From contig JAKDRW010000003.1 of assembly GCA_030454225.1 (NCBI GenBank), positions 1-64,000 on the forward strand: a stretch of 64,000 nt of DNA. Reading direction: 5' to 3'. Both the position numbers and the translations under genes were made by a program. This stretch comes from Vreelandella subglaciescola. GTDB taxonomy: Bacteria > Pseudomonadota > Gammaproteobacteria > Pseudomonadales > Halomonadaceae. Shown one piece after another: positions 232 to 44,211 of the stretch. The notes beneath the pieces were generated by a model. That model saw only the letters and a program-made list of their open reading frames with translations. It made no database searches and was not told the DNA's origin. Each line of letters opens with the position of its first letter. Positions within the stretch are counted from its first letter, which is position 1.

Positions 232-741
232 ATGAAAGGACAGCGTCGAACATTGCTTAAGCGCAGGTCTGTCAGGACTACCGCCCTGGCCAGCGCCGTC
301 GCCCTTGCCGTACTGCTCGGCACGGGAAGCGCCCAGGCGGGCCGCCATGACGGTTACAGCGGTGCCACCGACGGCTACTCGGGCGCCACCGATGGCTACA
401 GCGGCGCGACGCAGAAAGACCGCGACTGGCGGCCAGAGCGTGGCCGGCGCGACCATGGTCGCCGGCTAGAGCGCCAGCAGCGCCGCGAACTGGAACGCTT
501 TGAGCGCCAGCGTGACCGCGACATAGAGCGTCTGGATAATCGTCGTTTCCGTTCCAAGCGGGCTCAGGAGCGCGCCTACCGTGATCTTGAGCGCGAGCAT
601 GAAGCCCGTCTGCAGGATATTTTGGGCGACGATCGCTACCGCCAAGAGCGTCGTCGCTACGACGACTATGACAACCGCGGCTACGATAACCCCGAAGAAG
701 CCATGATTAACCTGATCATCCGCGAAGTGCTCAATCGGTAA
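232..741 (+). CDS. Exported small protein with three tandem DGYSGAT (ApbE-type flavinylation) motifs
   Basis: 169 residues. The first 36 look like a Sec signal peptide: a basic start (KGQRR, KRR), a hydrophobic Ala/Leu/Val core and an A-Q-A cleavage site. The predicted mature chain begins GRH and runs straight into DGYSGAT repeated three times (residues 40-60). The rest is a strongly charged Arg/Glu/Asp-rich segment predicted to be helical (about residues 65-150), ending in a short hydrophobic stretch near MINLIIREVL. No known domain is recognised. DGYSGAT fits the consensus Dxx[S/T]GA[T/S] on which the periplasmic enzyme ApbE attaches FMN to threonine; NqrB and NqrC in this window carry DGYTGAT and DALSGAT. 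A multi-flavinylated periplasmic electron carrier is therefore an inference, not a demonstrated function. The start is supported by an AGAGGAG site 7 nt upstream. The gene is followed after 30 bp by a CobQ-like gene. Confidence 0.85.
   Translation: MKGQRRTLLKRRSVRTTALASAVALAVLLGTGSAQAGRHDGYSGATDGYSGATDGYSGATQKDRDWRPERGRRDHGRRLERQQRRELERFERQRDRDIERLDNRRFRSKRAQERAYRDLEREHEARLQDILGDDRYRQERRRYDDYDNRGYDNPEEAMINLIIREVLNR
349..411 (+). repeat. Three tandem 21-bp units each encoding DGYSGAT
   Basis: Units lie at 349-369, 370-390 and 391-411. The peptide is identical in all three, but the codons differ at Asp (GAC/GAC/GAT), Gly (GGT/GGC/GGC), Ser (AGC/TCG/AGC), Ala (GCC/GCC/GCG) and Thr (ACC/ACC/ACG). 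The AGC-to-TCG serine change needs more than one base substitution. Conserved peptide with diverged codons suggests an old duplication kept by selection on the protein. Confidence 0.9.
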
Positions 742-771: not shown

Positions 772-1599
772 ATGGCCACGCTGATGATTCAGGGCACCAC
801 CTCGGATGCGGGAAAAAGCACCGTGGTGGCGGGGCTTTGCCGCGTGCTCAAGCGCCGCGGCGTCTCGGTGGCGCCGTTCAAGCCGCAAAACATGGCCCAG
901 CACAGCGTCCCCAGCGTAGACGGCGGGCGCGTTGGACGCTCTACCGCGTTTCAGGCGCAGGCCGCCGGCGTTGGCGTACACAGCGACATGAATCCGGTGC
1001 TGCTCAAGCCGGCAAGCGACCGTGGGGCCGAGGTGTTTCTGCGCGGCCGGCTGCACGCCCACATGGACGCGCTGAGCTACCATGCCTCCGACGCTCAAGC
1101 CTTCAAGCGTACTGCTCGGCACAGCATGATGGGCGCCTGGCGTGCGCTGTCTTCTCGTTTTGACGTGATCATCACCGAAGGCGCCGGCAGCCCGGCGGAG
1201 ATCAACCTGCGCGAGGGCGACATCGCCAACATGGGCTTTGCCGAGGCGGTGGACTGCCCGGTGCTGCTGGTGGGCGACATCGATCGCGGCGGGGTGTTCG
1301 CCCAGCTGGTGGGCACGCTTGCGCTGCTCAGTGACTCCGAACGGGCCCGCACCCGCGGCTTCATCATCAACCGTTTTCGCGGCGCGATGGAGCTGTTGAC
1401 GCCGGGGCTCGACTGGCTTGAGGACTATACCCAAAAGCCGGTGCTCGGCACGCTGCCGTATTTGCCGCGCCTGATGCGTGATGTCGACTATCGCCTTGTC
1501 AGCGGCCAGGCCGCCGAGGCCGAGCTTGAACGGCTGGCCGATACCCTGGAGCAACGGCTGGATATCGACGCCGTGCTGGCGCTTTTGCATAGCGACTGA
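772..1599 (+). CDS. CobQ-like P-loop protein (cobyric acid synthase amino domain only)
   Basis: 275 residues with clear similarity to the ATP-binding, dethiobiotin-synthetase-like domain of cobyric acid synthase. The P-loop is [10 protein letters not shown], followed by [34 protein letters not shown] and [12 protein letters not shown]. Complete CobQ enzymes are about 480-500 residues and carry a class I glutamine amidotransferase domain that supplies ammonia for amidating cobyrinic acid a,c-diamide. Here the protein stops after [12 protein letters not shown] and a short helical tail ([11 protein letters not shown]), and the 150 bp downstream do not encode the missing domain in any frame. No other cobalamin gene is in the window. 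It may be a truncated relic, or a stand-alone amidoligase that uses free ammonia or a separate glutaminase. The frame is intact with no sign of decay, so I list it as a CDS. Confidence 0.8.
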
Positions 1600-3165: not shown

Positions 3166-3636
3166 TTAGTCTTCTTGGGTCACGGTGAAGCTGCCGTTCA
3201 TGGACGCGTAGTGGCCCGGGAAGGTGCAGAAGAACGTCAAGTCTTGGTCTTCCAGATCTTCGGTCGAGAAGGTGACGCTGGTTTCTTCGCCGCCGCCAAC
3301 GACGTCGGTGTGAGCGATGATGCGGTCATCGTCTTCGGGCAGGTAGTTGTTGTCCAGCCCTTCGCTCATGCCGGCTTTGGCGACTTCTTCGTAATCATCG
3401 GAGTCGGCCAGTACCCAGTTGTGGCCCATGGCGCTGGCGTCCATGTCGCCGGTGTGCTTAAGCGTTACCGTGACTTCGTCGCAGCTTGCCGGAACGCTCA
3501 TTTCATCCTTGTTGAACTGCATCTGGTCGTTGCCTTCGATGGTCAGTTCGCAGGCGTCGTCGGCGGCCATGCTCGGAGACGCAAAAGCCAAGGCGGCGAA
3601 AGCAGCGGCGGGAATCAGCATCCAGGAAGTTTTCAT
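3166..3636 (-). CDS. azu: Azurin, periplasmic blue copper protein
   Basis: 156 residues, with a signal peptide cleaved around the SMA/ADDACE boundary. The type 1 copper ligands are visible: His72 (MGHNWVL), Cys137, His142 and Met146 in FFCTFPGHYASM. Cys29 and Cys52 have the spacing of the conserved azurin disulfide. Azurins shuttle single electrons in the periplasm between cytochromes and terminal reductases or oxidases. The mature chain is unusually rich in Asp and Glu, as expected for an exported protein of a halophile. The ORF track starts 12 codons earlier; the ATG at 3636 has an AAGGA site 7 nt upstream and begins the signal peptide. Two direct GTTATCAAAAC repeats lie just upstream. The gene is convergent with the MFS transporter. 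Confidence 0.95.
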   Translation of the reverse strand: MKTSWMLIPAAAFAALAFASPSMAADDACELTIEGNDQMQFNKDEMSVPASCDEVTVTLKHTGDMDASAMGHNWVLADSDDYEEVAKAGMSEGLDNNYLPEDDDRIIAHTDVVGGGEETSVTFSTEDLEDQDLTFFCTFPGHYASMNGSFTVTQED

Positions 3637-3651
3637 GTAAAGATCCTTACT

Positions 3652-3675
3652 GTTATCAAAACGAGTTATCAAAAC
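3652..3675 (-). promoter_or_regulatory. Direct repeat GTTATCAAAAC upstream of azurin
   Basis: Two perfect 11-bp copies with a 13-bp period lie 16-39 nt upstream of the azurin ATG. On the coding strand each reads GTTTTGATAAC and contains TTGAT, the half-site of FNR/ANR-type regulators, here in direct rather than inverted orientation. The role is unknown; it may be an operator or a leader element. Confidence 0.4.
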
Positions 3676-9305: not shown

Positions 9306-10354
9306 GCGGGCTTTCCTGTCAGTTTGACGGTGGGGTTAACCAGACCGTAAATCAGGTCGACCAGAGTGTTGGTGATCACAAAGATGAGCCCCACGATCAT
9401 CAGGTAGGTGACGATCAGGGGAATGTCGGAGCGCTCGATGGCGTTAAGGAACATCAGCCCCATGCCGGGCCACTGAAATACCGTCTCGGTGAGAATGGTG
9501 TAGGCCACCAGCGTGCCGATTTGCACCCCGCCGACGGTGATGACCGGCAGCATGGTGTTTTTCAGCGCGTGCAAAAAGTAGATGCGGCGCATGGAAATAC
9601 CTTTGGCGCGGGCGAACTTGACGTAGTCCGACTGCAGCACTTCGAGCATTTCGGCTCGGATCAGGCGGATAAACAGCGGCAGCATGATCGAGGCCAGCGA
9701 GATCGCCGGCAGCACCAGGTAGGTCAGCCCTTCAAGGCTGGCGAAGTTGGTGTACCAGGTGCCGAATACGTGGGTCGGGTCGCCGCGGCCGTAGGCCGGC
9801 ATGCCGCCTTCGGTGGTAATAAGATCGTTGAGCCAGGCGCCCCAGCCGGTCCCTGCGGGGAAGGGCGTCCAACTAACGCCAATGGCGAACAGCTGAATCA
9901 GCACGATGGCGGTTAAAAACACCGGCACCGATATCCCCACGATCGACACGCTCATAAACAGGCGCGTCAGCCAGGCGCGGGGCTTGATGGCGCTATACAC
10001 GCCGATGGGAATCGACAGCGCAATGATCAAAAACGAGGCGGCCGCGACCAGCTCAAGGGTGGCCGGCAGGTGGCGGGCGATAACCTCGGTGGTGGGCTGG
10101 TTGAACACGTAGGAGTAGCCAAAATCAAAGCGCGCAGCGTTGCCGGCAAAGCGCAGGTACTGGGTAAGAAACGGATCGTTCAGCCCCAGCTCTTCGCGCA
10201 GCTCGGCACGCTCGCTTTCGGGCACCGACTGGCCCACCAGCTGTTGAACCGGGTCGCCAAGATTATCCTGTATGGCGAAGGCGATCACGCTGATGACAAA
10301 CATCACCAGCAGCGCGTGAAACAGGCGCTTGATCAAAAAAGCGATCATGGGCAA
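9302..10354 (-). CDS. Peptide ABC transporter permease (DppB type)
   Basis: 350 residues, six predicted transmembrane segments, starting LIKRLFHALLVMFVISVIAF as is usual for DppB/OppB. The EAA-type loop is near YVKFARAKGISMRRIYFLHA, followed by LKNTMLPVITVGGVQ. It has a longer periplasmic loop (about residues 165-215) than the shortest family members. It pairs with the DppC-type permease encoded 4 nt overlapping downstream, and lies 69 bp downstream of the binding-protein gene. Confidence 0.92.
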   Translation of the reverse strand: MPMIAFLIKRLFHALLVMFVISVIAFAIQDNLGDPVQQLVGQSVPESERAELREELGLNDPFLTQYLRFAGNAARFDFGYSYVFNQPTTEVIARHLPATLELVAAASFLIIALSIPIGVYSAIKPRAWLTRLFMSVSIVGISVPVFLTAIVLIQLFAIGVSWTPFPAGTGWGAWLNDLITTEGGMPAYGRGDPTHVFGTWYTNFASLEGLTYLVLPAISLASIMLPLFIRLIRAEMLEVLQSDYVKFARAKGISMRRIYFLHALKNTMLPVITVGGVQIGTLVAYTILTETVFQWPGMGLMFLNAIERSDIPLIVTYLMIVGLIFVITNTLVDLIYGLVNPTVKLTGKPA

Positions 10355-10423
10355 GTGTCCTGTGGCAGCAACAGGGAAGCGACGCGCCCGTGGGGCGCGT
10401 CGTTAAACGGGAAAGCAGGCGGT

Positions 10424-12028
10424 TTAGTTGGCGTCTTCCGCGTCGACCACCAGGTCGCCCAGGTAGGGGAAGTTCATCACGTTGAGCACCGGCTCGATGT
10501 CGGCATTGATGGCCGATGCCCAGGCCAGATCCTGCCAGTGCAGCGGCACAAACGCGGCGTCGTCGTAAAGCGTTTGTTCGACCTGCTGGAGCATGTTGGC
10601 GCGCTTCTCCAGATCGATTTCTTCATTGGCCTCGGCCACCAGTTTATCGAGTTCGGGGTTGCAGTAGTTGCCGGCGTTGTACTGGCCGGCGCCGCTGTCG
10701 GCGTCGGGGCAGGCGGTGATGTATTCGTGGAAGTTGGCGCTGTCTTCGGTGTCGGCGTGCCAGCCAATCAGCATCATGTCGGCGGCGCGGTCGTCAAATT
10801 CGCCCCAGTACTGCGCTTTGGGCAGGGTTTTCAAGTCGACGTCGACGTTGATGCGGGCGAGCATGGCGGCAACCGCCTGGGCAATTTTGGCGTCGTTCAC
10901 GTAGCGGTTGTTGGGCGCCATCATGGTGATGTCAAAGCCGTCGGCGTAGCCGGCTTCCTCCATTAGCTCTTTGGCTTTTTCCACGTCGTAGCGCGGTTCG
11001 AGCGAGTCAACGTGGCCCACATAGCCTTCCGGCGACATCTGTGCGGCCGGCGTGGCGAAGCCTTTCATCAGGCGGTCGGCGATGCCTTGCTGGTTGATGG
11101 CGTAGGCGAAGGCCTGGCGCACGCGCGGGTCTTCAAACGCTTCGACGCGCTTTTGGTTCATGTGGAACAGGACGATGCGCGTGCCCGACATGGTAATCAG
11201 CTTGGCGTTGTCGCTTTGGCGCACGCGGTCCAAATCGTTGGGTGGCACCGGGGCGATAAAGTCCACGTCGCCCGAGAGCAGGGCGGCGACGCGGGTGGCG
11301 TTTTCGCTGATCGGCGTGAGGATCAGGCGGTCAACGTTGCCGGGGGAGTCGGTATCCCAGTAGTCGGGGTTGCGCTGAAACTCGGTGCGCACGCCTTGCT
11401 GGCGCTCGGTCACGGTGTAGGGGCCGGTGCCCGAGACGTTGCTTGATGCGAAGGAGTTACCGTTTTTGACGATTTCGTCCTTGGGGTCGCCGTCGGGGGC
11501 GTCGCCCGAATAGAACTCGCTGTCCATCGGGAAGATGTAGGTGGCCAGGTTTAACAGCAGCGGGTAGGGCTTGACGGTGGTGATCTCGACGGTGTGCTCG
11601 TCTACCGCGGTGGCGCTTTCTACCGGGGCGAAAATACCTTTGAAGTCGGAGCTTTTCTTGAGCCGCTCGATGGTCCAGACCACGTCTTTGGCGGTAAACG
11701 GGTTGCCGCTATGAAAGGTCACGCCGTCGCGCAGCGTCATGCGCATGGTGGTGTCGTCGACCTGCTCCCACTCGGTGGCCAGGCGCGGCTCGAAGTTGAG
11801 CGACTGATCCCAGCGTACCAGCGGGTCAAAGGTCAGGTGCGATAGCTGCATGATGCCGCCGGAAAGCTGTTCGTGAATATCCAGCGATACGGGGTCGGCG
11901 TCGTAGGCCATGCGCAGAGTGTTTTCGGCCAGCGCGGCGCTCGACATCAGCGCGCCGCCGGCAAGCGTAGCGGCAATGGCAGAGGCGAGTAGCGTCTTTT
12001 TAACGGTGGGCAGGCGTGTCACGGTCAT
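10424..12028 (-). CDS. Periplasmic peptide-binding protein (SBP family 5, DppA type)
   Basis: 534 residues with a signal peptide ending around SSAALA/ENTLRM. This is the solute-binding component that delivers ligand to the permease. Family 5 features include YDADPVSLDIHEQ, LTFDPLVRW, the FHSGNPFTAKDVVW segment and FEDPRVRQAFAYAINQ. Ligand specificity (dipeptides, longer peptides, glutathione or another small solute) cannot be decided from sequence; the neighbouring Xaa-Pro dipeptidase favours peptides. It is the first gene of the operon and probably carries the promoter in the 214 bp upstream, where a GGGGA ribosome site precedes the ATG. Confidence 0.92.
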   Translation of the reverse strand: MTVTRLPTVKKTLLASAIAATLAGGALMSSAALAENTLRMAYDADPVSLDIHEQLSGGIMQLSHLTFDPLVRWDQSLNFEPRLATEWEQVDDTTMRMTLRDGVTFHSGNPFTAKDVVWTIERLKKSSDFKGIFAPVESATAVDEHTVEITTVKPYPLLLNLATYIFPMDSEFYSGDAPDGDPKDEIVKNGNSFASSNVSGTGPYTVTERQQGVRTEFQRNPDYWDTDSPGNVDRLILTPISENATRVAALLSGDVDFIAPVPPNDLDRVRQSDNAKLITMSGTRIVLFHMNQKRVEAFEDPRVRQAFAYAINQQGIADRLMKGFATPAAQMSPEGYVGHVDSLEPRYDVEKAKELMEEAGYADGFDITMMAPNNRYVNDAKIAQAVAAMLARINVDVDLKTLPKAQYWGEFDDRAADMMLIGWHADTEDSANFHEYITACPDADSGAGQYNAGNYCNPELDKLVAEANEEIDLEKRANMLQQVEQTLYDDAAFVPLHWQDLAWASAINADIEPVLNVMNFPYLGDLVVDAEDAN

Positions 12029-40823: not shown

Positions 40824-42173
40824 ATGATCGAAGTCAAAAAAGGCCTGGATCTCCCCATCGCGGGGGCGCCGGAGCTGCGCATTACCGATGCTCAGCCGGC
40901 GCGCCACGTGGCCATCCTGGGTACTGACTATGTCGGCATGCGGCCGACAATGGAAGTCAAGGTTGGGGATAAGGTCAAGTTAGGCCAACTACTTTTCACC
41001 GATAAGAAAATTGCGGGGGTGCGCTTCACGTCACCCGCCGCCGGTGAGGTGGTCGCTATCAACCGTGGCGAAAAGCGGCGTTTGCTGTCTGTGGTGATCA
41101 AAGTCGATGAGAGCGAAGAAGCCGTGGCCTTTACGGCGCACGAGCGTAGCGCTCTTGGTAGCCTGGAGCGCCAGACGGTCGTTGACCAGCTGGTAGACTC
41201 CGGGCTTTGGACGGCGCTGCGCACGCGTCCGTTCTCGCGTACGCCGGCACTCGACAGCACGCCCGCCGACATCTTCGTGACCGCCGTGGATACCCATCCG
41301 CTAAGTCCCGACCCCGCGGTGATCATCAACGAAGCGCCCGAGGCGTTTACCGATGGTCTGAAGGTGCTGTCCCGCCTGACCGAAGGCAAGGTTTATCTGT
41401 GCACCGGCAAAGACGCGTCGATCCCCGGCGCTGACGTCAGCGGCGTGGCTACCGAGGCCTTTAACGGGCCACACCCGGCGGGGCTTGCGGGTACGCATAT
41501 CCATCATTTGTCGCCGGTCGGCCTGCACAAGCACGTTTGGCATATTGGCTACCAGGATGTGATGGCGATGGGTACGCTGTTCGCCCAGGGCAAACTCGAC
41601 GTCACCCGCATCATGGCCGTGACCGGGCCGCGCGCCGTAGAGCCGCGCCTGCTGCGCACTCGTGTGGGTGCCAATACCGAGGAGCTGCTCGCCGGTGAAG
41701 TCGTCAAGCCCGATGATACGCGGGTGATTTCGGGGTCGGTGTTTTCCGGCTTTGCCACCGAAGGCAAGCTGAGCTACGCGGGGCGCTTTCACAACCAGTT
41801 CAGTCTGCTCGAAGAGGGCAACAAGCGCCTCTTCATGGGCTGGCTGTCGCCGGGTAGCGAGCGCCACTCGGTGCTGGGGATTTACCTGTCGAAGATCAAG
41901 GGGCTGAGCAACTACGCGCCGACGACGTCGACCAACGGGTCGGAGCGCGCGATGGTACCGGTTGGCGCCTACGAGCAAGTCATGCCGCTGGATATCATGC
42001 CGACTCAGCTGCTGCGTTCGCTGATCGTGGGGGACATTGAAGCTGCGATGGAGCTTGGCTGTCTGGAGCTGGACGAAGAGGATCTGGCGCTGTGCACGTA
42101 CGCTTGCCCAGGCAAGTATGAGTACGGCCCCATCCTGCGCGATAACCTCACCATGATCGAGAAAGAGGCCTGA
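40824..42173 (+). CDS. nqrA: Na+-translocating NADH:quinone reductase subunit A
   Basis: 449 residues. Cytoplasmic-side subunit of the sodium-pumping respiratory complex. It opens [20 protein letters not shown] as in Vibrio Nqr[20 protein letters not shown] and the later [25 protein letters not shown] and [15 protein letters not shown] are conserved. The ORF track extends 39 codons upstream; the ATG at 40824 has a GGGCGAG site and matches the family. First of six adjacent nqr genes. Confidence 0.97.
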
Positions 42174-43399
42174 TGATGGGTATTCGACAAACGCTCGAGA
42201 ATATCGAGCCGCACTTTCATAAAGGCGGCAAGTATGAAGCGTTCTACCCGCTGTTCGAAGCGGTAGACACGATGCTCTATACGCCGCCCAGCGTAACCAA
42301 GACGACCGCGCATATTCGCGACGGTATCGATCTTAAGCGCATGATGATCACCGTTTGGCTATGCGCCTTCCCGGCCATGTTTTTCGGCATGTGGAACGCC
42401 GGCTTTCAGGCCAACAGCGCCATCGACGCCGGCTCCTTGTCCATGGGCGGCTGGCGCGAAGCGCTGACAATGGTGCTGTCCGCGGGGCACAATGCCGATA
42501 GCCTGTGGGCCAACTTTGTCCTTGGGGCGACCTACTTCATACCGATCTATTTCATCACCTTTGTGGTGGGCGGCTTCTGGGAAGTGCTGTTTGCGATCAA
42601 GCGCGGCCACGAGGTCAACGAAGGCTTTTTCGTCACCTCGATCCTGTTCGCGTTGATTTTGCCGGCGACGATTCCGCTGTGGCAGGTCGCGCTAGGCATT
42701 ACCTTTGGGGTGGTGATCGGCAAGGAAGTCTTTGGCGGTACCGGCAAGAACTTCTTGAATCCGGCGCTGACGGCGCGTGCGTTTTTGTATTTTGCCTACC
42801 CGGCGCAAATTTCCGGCGACTCGATCTGGGTGGCCGCTGACGGCTATACCGGCGCCACCGCGCTGTCCATGGCGTTTCAGGACGGCATGACCCAGCTGAC
42901 CGATTCTGTCAGCTGGTGGGATGCGTTCTGGGGCTTTATTCCCGGCTCGGTCGGCGAGGTCTCCACCTTTGCCATCCTGCTTGGCGGTATCGTGCTGCTG
43001 TGGACGCGGCTGGCCTCCTGGCGCATCATGCTGGGGGTGTGTCTGGGGATGATCGCGACCAGTACGCTGTTCAACCTGATCGGTTCTGACACCAACGCCA
43101 TGTTTGCCATGCCGTGGTACTGGCACTTTGTCATCGGCGGCTTTGCCTTCGGCATGGTGTTTATGGCCACCGACCCGGTATCGGCTTCGATGACCAATCC
43201 GGGGCGCTGGATTTTTGGTGCGCTCATCGGCTTTATGACCGTGCTGATCCGCGTGGTTAACCCGGCGTTCCCCGAGGGCATCATGTTGGCGATTCTGTTT
43301 GCCAACCTGTTTGCGCCGCTGATTGACCACTTCTTTGTCCAGGCCAACATCAAACGTCGCGTTAAGCGCGTTGGCGTGCCGGCCGAGGAGACTGCCTGA
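42173..43399 (+). CDS. nqrB: Na+-translocating NADH:quinone reductase subunit B
   Basis: 408 residues (407 if the second ATG at 42176 is used, which fits the family start [14 protein letters not shown]). Integral membrane subunit with about 10 helices; it carries riboflavin and a covalently bound FMN. The FMN acceptor threonine is in [10 protein letters not shown] (motif at 42839-42859), the substrate motif of ApbE. The start overlaps the nqrA stop (TGATG) and the stop overlaps nqrC, so translation is coupled. Confidence 0.97.
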
Positions 43400-44211
43400 T
43401 GGGTAACAACTCGATCAAAAAGACGCTGATCGTGGCGTTTGCGCTGTGTATCGTCTGCTCCGTAATTGTATCCACGGCGGCGGTAGCGCTACGCCCGCAG
43501 CAGCAGTTCAACCAGGAGCTGGACCGCAAGGCCAACATTATCCAGGTGGCCAAGCTTGGCGGCTCGGGCAAAAGCGTCGAGGATGTGTTCAACGAGCGCA
43601 TCAGCGCGCGCGTCGTCGATATGCAGACCGGCGAATACACCGATGAGTTCGATCCCGAAACCTTCGACCAGTTCGAAGCGGCAACCGATCCGGCTACCGG
43701 CCGCACGCTGTCGGGGCGCAACGATCTTGCCGGCCTCTCGCAGGTGGAAAACTACGCGACGGTTTACCTGATCGACGACCCCGAAGATCCCAGCCAGATC
43801 GTCTTGCCGATTCGTGGCCAGGGCCTGTGGGGGCTGATGAGCGGCTTCTTGTCGGTCAAGGGTGATGGTAATACTATTGTCAGTATTACCTATTACGACA
43901 TGAGCGAAACGCCGGGGCTGGGTGCCGAGGTCAACAATTCACGCTGGCAGGCGCTGTGGGACGGTAAAGAAATCTACGCCGAGGGCGACGATAGCCTCTC
44001 GCCGGCGATTCACCTGTCCAAGAGCGCCAGCGGCGAGAATGAAGTGGATGCGTTGTCGGGTGCCACGCTGACCAGTAACGGGGTCACCAACATGCTCCAG
44101 TTCTGGTTGAGCTCGGAAGGTTTCGGTAAATATCTGGCTAAGTTCCGCAGCGGTGTGAGCCAGGATGATGCTCAAAACGCCGGCGCCGAACGTGAATCGG
44201 AAGGAGCCTAA
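43399..44211 (+). CDS. nqrC: Na+-translocating NADH:quinone reductase subunit C
   Basis: 270 residues. One N-terminal membrane helix ([21 protein letters not shown]) and a periplasmic FMN-binding domain. The covalent FMN site is the threonine of [14 protein letters not shown] (motif at 44047-44067, acceptor about Thr223). It links the electron path from NqrF/D/E to NqrB. The ATG overlaps the nqrB stop by one base and nqrD follows after 2 bp. Confidence 0.97.

Follow-up and report, generated by a model that had tools for sequence, protein, structure and literature searches.

Surveys of flavinylated proteins have mostly relied on known domains (FMN-bind, NqrB/RnfD, DUF2271, DUF3570) or on gene clusters. 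Descriptions of multi-flavinylated proteins have so far concerned chains composed of FMN-bind domains (PMC8238504, PMC11334425), and the ApbE targets known to date are electron-transfer proteins (PMC8238504). On recognition, a review (PMC12052999, citing Tong et al. 2021) states that ApbE requires no more than seven residues, that N- or C-terminal tags work best and typically give full flavin incorporation, and that the acceptor Thr is essential, with Asp to Ala having minor effects in one substrate (PMC12052999). Asp is given as essential in PMC10722498, together with the motif D-[GAIQ]-[IALVF]-[ST]-G-A-[ST].

We analysed a 64,000-nucleotide stretch of DNA from Vreelandella subglaciescola, referred to here as the window. 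The gene at 232-741 probably encodes a previously undescribed kind of natural, minimal carrier of several flavins, found in a few salt-loving Halomonas-type bacteria. Judged from its sequence, the protein would be an ApbE substrate set apart by bare tandem tags at its terminus. The multi-FMN-bind proteins of PF04205 (PMC8238504, PMC11334425, PMC10339131) are also exported and also have several predicted ApbE sites per chain, but each of their sites lies in a folded domain of ~120-160 residues, whereas the three sites here lie within 21 residues. The engineered Flavin-tag (Tong et al. 2021, as reviewed in PMC12052999) is likewise a bare seven-residue ApbE tag at the terminus of an unrelated protein, but it is artificial and, in that review's account, not tandem, whereas the tags at this locus are natural, tandem and conserved. 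No natural protein with bare heptads in tandem was reported in the literature searched, many subscription papers being outside its reach.

Layout of the exported protein and its heptads

The open reading frame (232..741, + strand) starts with ATG just behind a purine-rich gaggag stretch and encodes 169 aa. Residues 1-36 (232..339, +) form a predicted signal peptide of classical type, with cleavage predicted by eye after SAQA, followed by GRH and then the heptads. A charged n-region, a hydrophobic core and an AxA-type site were recognized by inspection in 5/5 orthologs (the window gene and four others), which points to the extracytosolic location expected of ApbE substrates.

The preliminary description had reported DGYSGAT three times in a row after the signal peptide, followed by a charged helical domain, and both were found. 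The heptads fill residues 40-60, as copy 1 (residues 40-46, 349..369, +), copy 2 (residues 47-53, 370..390, +) and copy 3 (residues 54-60, 391..411, +), with Thr46, Thr53 and Thr60 as the respective candidate acceptors. Their Ser codons are AGC, TCG and AGC. Tandem Repeats Finder reported a unit of 21 bases at 349-407 with 76% matches; divergence at the DNA level thus contrasts with full identity of the three peptides. The linker behind the heptads is charged and leads into a helical segment, with a short helix at the C-terminus. In the AlphaFold2 model, the charged helical segment (436..666, +) forms three helices within residues 69-145 (69-102, 109-131 and 133-145), and the C-terminal helix, which is conserved in orthologs, covers residues 154-168 (691..735, +). 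pLDDT was below 50 at residues 1-46 and 48-63, predicting a disordered tag region; such disorder is what an accessible tag should show, and it suggests that constraint acts on the peptide and not on a fold.

No Pfam family matched the protein at E up to 1, and no FMN-bind type match was obtained for any of the five orthologs at E up to 10, which bears out the claim that the protein has no FMN-bind domain and places it outside the proteins with more than one such domain (PF04205). A PDB fold search returned nothing below E 3, and a PDB sequence search nothing relevant.

The DNA pattern for Dxx[ST]GA[TS] matched the window five times, compared with 1.38 matches expected from shuffles, and all five were the three tags and the sites of NqrB and NqrC. 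The NqrB heptad, DGYTGAT (42839..42859, +; gene 42173-43399), comes closest to the tags of all matches in the genome, and the NqrC heptad is DALSGAT (44047..44067, +; gene 43399-44211); these are the two sites of the same kind that the preliminary description had named. The Na+-NQR subunits share the heptad with the protein, that of NqrB being nearly identical to the tags and ~42 kb away, but show no homology to it elsewhere; of the two, NqrB is integral to the membrane and NqrC contains an FMN-bind domain. Across the five related genomes DxY[ST]GAT gave 20 matches (14 in the 232-741 gene, 5 in NqrB and 1 in an unrelated ORF), and the reversed control pattern gave 2. An apbE gene was present in 82/82 genomes of the genus, G000 (contig C65) included. 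No carrier genome lacks apbE, an observation that would have spoken against the preliminary reading, but with apbE universal in the genus this is a weak test and co-occurrence cannot discriminate.

Conservation of the tags among orthologs

Searching the whole genomes of 82 members of the genus gave orthologs in five, the window genome and four others (G009, G102, G113 and G116), the latter with 58-72% identity (alignment A1). The G102 gene is identical to that in NZ_AMQY01000014.1 (Vreelandella jeotgali), and the G113 gene to that in NZ_JAKDUR010000002.1 (Halomonas sp. 97_S4, a MAG). This search did better than a peptide-pattern search of genome contigs, which found no relatives. A profile run against 275 family genomes gave no further strong matches, and no plasmid matched an artificial composite of the tag sequences used as query. 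Weak matches in G057, G052 and G012 were rejected as homologs by inspection, having no heptad and other genes at the place; several weak matches in the family search were antisense or low-complexity reading frames. With only five orthologs in one genus, the role of the protein appears dispensable in most relatives.

Four orthologs carry three heptads and that of V. jeotgali carries two. After the last heptad V. jeotgali reads SGAT-DKDGGW, against SGAT-RKDHGW in a three-copy relative, so the difference is exactly one heptad. Copy 1 is invariant and copy 2 intact in 5/5 orthologs, and copy 3, the one absent from V. jeotgali, is present in 4/5. All 14 copies from the five orthologs, including the three of the window gene, fit Dxx[ST]GA[ST] and show no change at D, Y, S, G, A or T; the only varying site is the second residue of copy 2 (G, A or S), which is a free (x2) position. 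The question raised by the preliminary description, whether each copy is conserved, thus received a divided answer: Asp and Thr are retained in every heptad that the orthologs carry, but V. jeotgali has one copy fewer.

The Ser codon is always AGC in copies 1 and 3 and always TCN in copy 2 across the five orthologs. This fixed split indicates that the copies are older than the divergence of the five genes and that each has been kept separately. When the five orthologs were compared pair by pair with the Nei-Gojobori method, the pairs not being independent of one another, the tags showed pN 0.024 and pS 0.69. Elsewhere pN was higher: 0.355 for the linker that directly follows the tags, 0.351 for the signal peptide and 0.19 for the helical part. 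The contrast in pN between the tags and their neighbouring stretches is large, and the tags are under strong purifying selection. The selection on the peptide proposed in the preliminary description is therefore upheld, the copies having almost only synonymous change.

Possible roles of the tagged protein

The sequence argues well for flavinylation and makes an electron-carrier role plausible. We regard FMN attachment in vivo at one site at least as highly probable. The explanation we favour, with somewhat better than even confidence, is a small periplasmic protein with two or three covalent FMNs and no FMN-bind fold, most likely a soluble electron carrier or hopping relay; the carrier role by itself we put at an even chance. 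Its disordered mature N-terminus would consist of two or three minimal ApbE substrate tags in series. Once the protein is exported, FMN would be moved from FAD to Thr46, Thr53 and Thr60 by the same ApbE that acts on Na+-NQR; the tags resemble the NqrB site (DGY[S/T]GAT). The product would have up to three covalent, solvent-exposed flavins as a flexible string on a charged helical carrier, and the seven-residue spacing of the sites would bring the flavins within hopping reach in the flexible chain. Against this explanation, flavins that lack a pocket have an untuned redox potential and may be open to reaction with oxygen, and the invariant third-position Tyr exceeds what ApbE is known to require. 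Apart from a common azurin-like cupredoxin, no gene for a redox partner is constantly found next to the 232-741 gene; this azurin/plastocyanin-family gene (3166-3672, - strand in the window) is also found nearby in the four relatives and is a possible periplasmic redox partner.

The tags might be flavinylated and still serve something other than electron transfer between partners: they could store flavin, act as a sink for oxygen or radicals, or provide a chaperone-like protein of the envelope with a cofactor related to light or stress. Exposed, pocketless flavins would be expected to react readily with oxygen, and in profile comparison the helical part was weakly similar to helical exported proteins from the family (45 aligned columns, hhalign probability 84) and bore a very weak likeness to Metal_resist (PF13801; best E 0.055, in 3/5 orthologs), a score short of the cut-off that does not place the protein in the Spy/CpxP-like or Metal_resist group. 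The small exported helical family proteins (Spy/CpxP- or Metal_resist-like, for example L053 and L058) are likewise charged and helical but carry no flavin tags, and their similarity to the protein is weak, with no Pfam match above cut-off. With no structural match in the PDB, and with the ApbE targets known so far being electron-transfer proteins (PMC8238504), we consider such a role unlikely.

It is a rather improbable alternative that the heptads are not flavinylated at all and that the peptide serves binding, metal, export or proteolytic recognition, its likeness to an ApbE site being coincidental. The third-position Tyr, invariant in 14/14 copies, goes beyond the ApbE consensus and, like that of the window NqrB, falls outside the motif list in PMC10722498; some tandem heptads elsewhere also sit in low-complexity proteins without a redox role. 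Against this, variation is confined to one position that ApbE leaves free, every position it constrains being invariant, and the sequence in these genomes that comes closest to the tags is the NqrB FMN site.

The gene neighbourhood raises a further alternative. In the four relatives the locus comprises a cobalamin riboswitch, a TonB-dependent receptor, a periplasmic binding protein, YtoQ, the ortholog, CobQ and an MFS protein. The window starts at contig base 1 of an assembly that is 72% complete, so the upstream genes are not visible in that genome, and Rfam gave nothing above threshold on the window start. The adjacent cobQ (cobyric acid synthase; 772..1599, +), which is context and not part of the protein, lacks its glutaminase domain. 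It is truncated in the window, G009 and G102 and in pieces in G116, and the glutaminase domain remains only in G113. No tagless version of the gene was found beside cobQ in the 30 cobQ loci of the genus that were inspected. That cobQ decays and the 232-741 gene does not makes it unlikely that their products work together; a link of the protein to B12 uptake is possible and serves as a lead. Reduced flavins are able to reduce cob(III)alamin chemically. A flavinylated protein dedicated to corrinoid handling, with reduced flavins that would reduce the cob(III)alamins arriving in the periplasm as B12 is taken up, would suit a gene lying between B12-uptake genes and cobQ in four relatives, but it is quite doubtful given the intact gene beside a truncated or split cobQ in 4/5 genomes, the roughly 200 to 350 bases that separate it from the upstream gene, and the uptake or synthesis of B12 without it in most relatives.

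As a side observation on cobQ, the glutaminase-less forms in three genomes are similar in length (271-275 aa), full-length cobQ being usual in the genus; the affected loci, the one with cobQ in pieces included, are window 772-1599, L059:9119-9934, L062:10134-10961 and L060 at about 10190-10990.

Terminal and tandem heptads in other proteins

One genome for each of 85,462 species was scanned for two adjacent [ST]GAT heptads. Such tandems were very rare, with 31 stretches, 26 of them in an open frame and several of these in low-complexity proteins. The open-frame carriers include five FMN-bind proteins (four with an RnfG-like layout in Bacteroidales), one NqrB/RnfD, one 4Fe-4S and one NADH-dehydrogenase-like protein, and two of the 232-741 family. 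ApbE was encoded in 6/7 genomes checked.

Two of these groups, independent natural instances of terminal heptads on exported redox proteins, were followed into their relatives; both are selected cases, being reached via a motif search, and conservation in the relatives is separate evidence. In Bacteroidales RnfG a second heptad lies in the short tail after the FMN-bind domain. Among 30 relatives of L041 (L090-L119), the tail heptad was found in 23 with the strict pattern and in all 30 with a relaxed one (D..[STG][GAS]A[TS]), against 0.25% strict matches in shuffled tails, counts that are uncorrected for genome relatedness. The spirochaete 4Fe-4S protein and its relatives (L032:3357-4076; relatives L120-L131) have one or two ApbE-type heptads at the extreme C-terminus. 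All 11 relatives with the C-terminus in the data end the chain in [ST]GA[ST] plus at most 3 residues, most with the heptad Asp and two with Glu instead, and most relatives have an RR[DE]FL-type Tat signal. The C-terminal heptads of these Tat-exported proteins are a natural counterpart of the engineered C-terminal Flavin-tag.

Taken with the Halomonas-type protein, these cases suggest that bare ApbE heptads act as natural terminal flavin tags, single or tandem, on exported proteins that have no flavin-binding fold at that place, which we think likely. Such a reading would cover the spirochaete 4Fe-4S proteins and the Bacteroidales RnfG tails, and the Halomonas-type protein would be the extreme case, with tags on a scaffold without a known redox domain. 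If bare terminal heptads are natural ApbE sites, a protein could gain a covalent flavin without having to evolve a fold for it, an extracytosolic class of redox proteins would have been overlooked so far, the engineered Flavin-tag would have a counterpart in nature, and there would be a simple test of whether untuned, tethered flavins carry electrons.

The Spirochaetaceae NADH-dehydrogenase-like protein (L029:31-2043), with four heptads within a Trp/Ala-rich stretch, was set aside, as no ApbE was found in its genome and the heptads resemble a helical repeat. Among the RnfG tails, L041 has a tandem heptad and L020:3439-4260 about nine copies. In a Clostridiales FMN-bind protein (L045:1529-2518) the domain is split by a long Asp/Gly/Ala/Thr-rich insert that contains tandem heptads.
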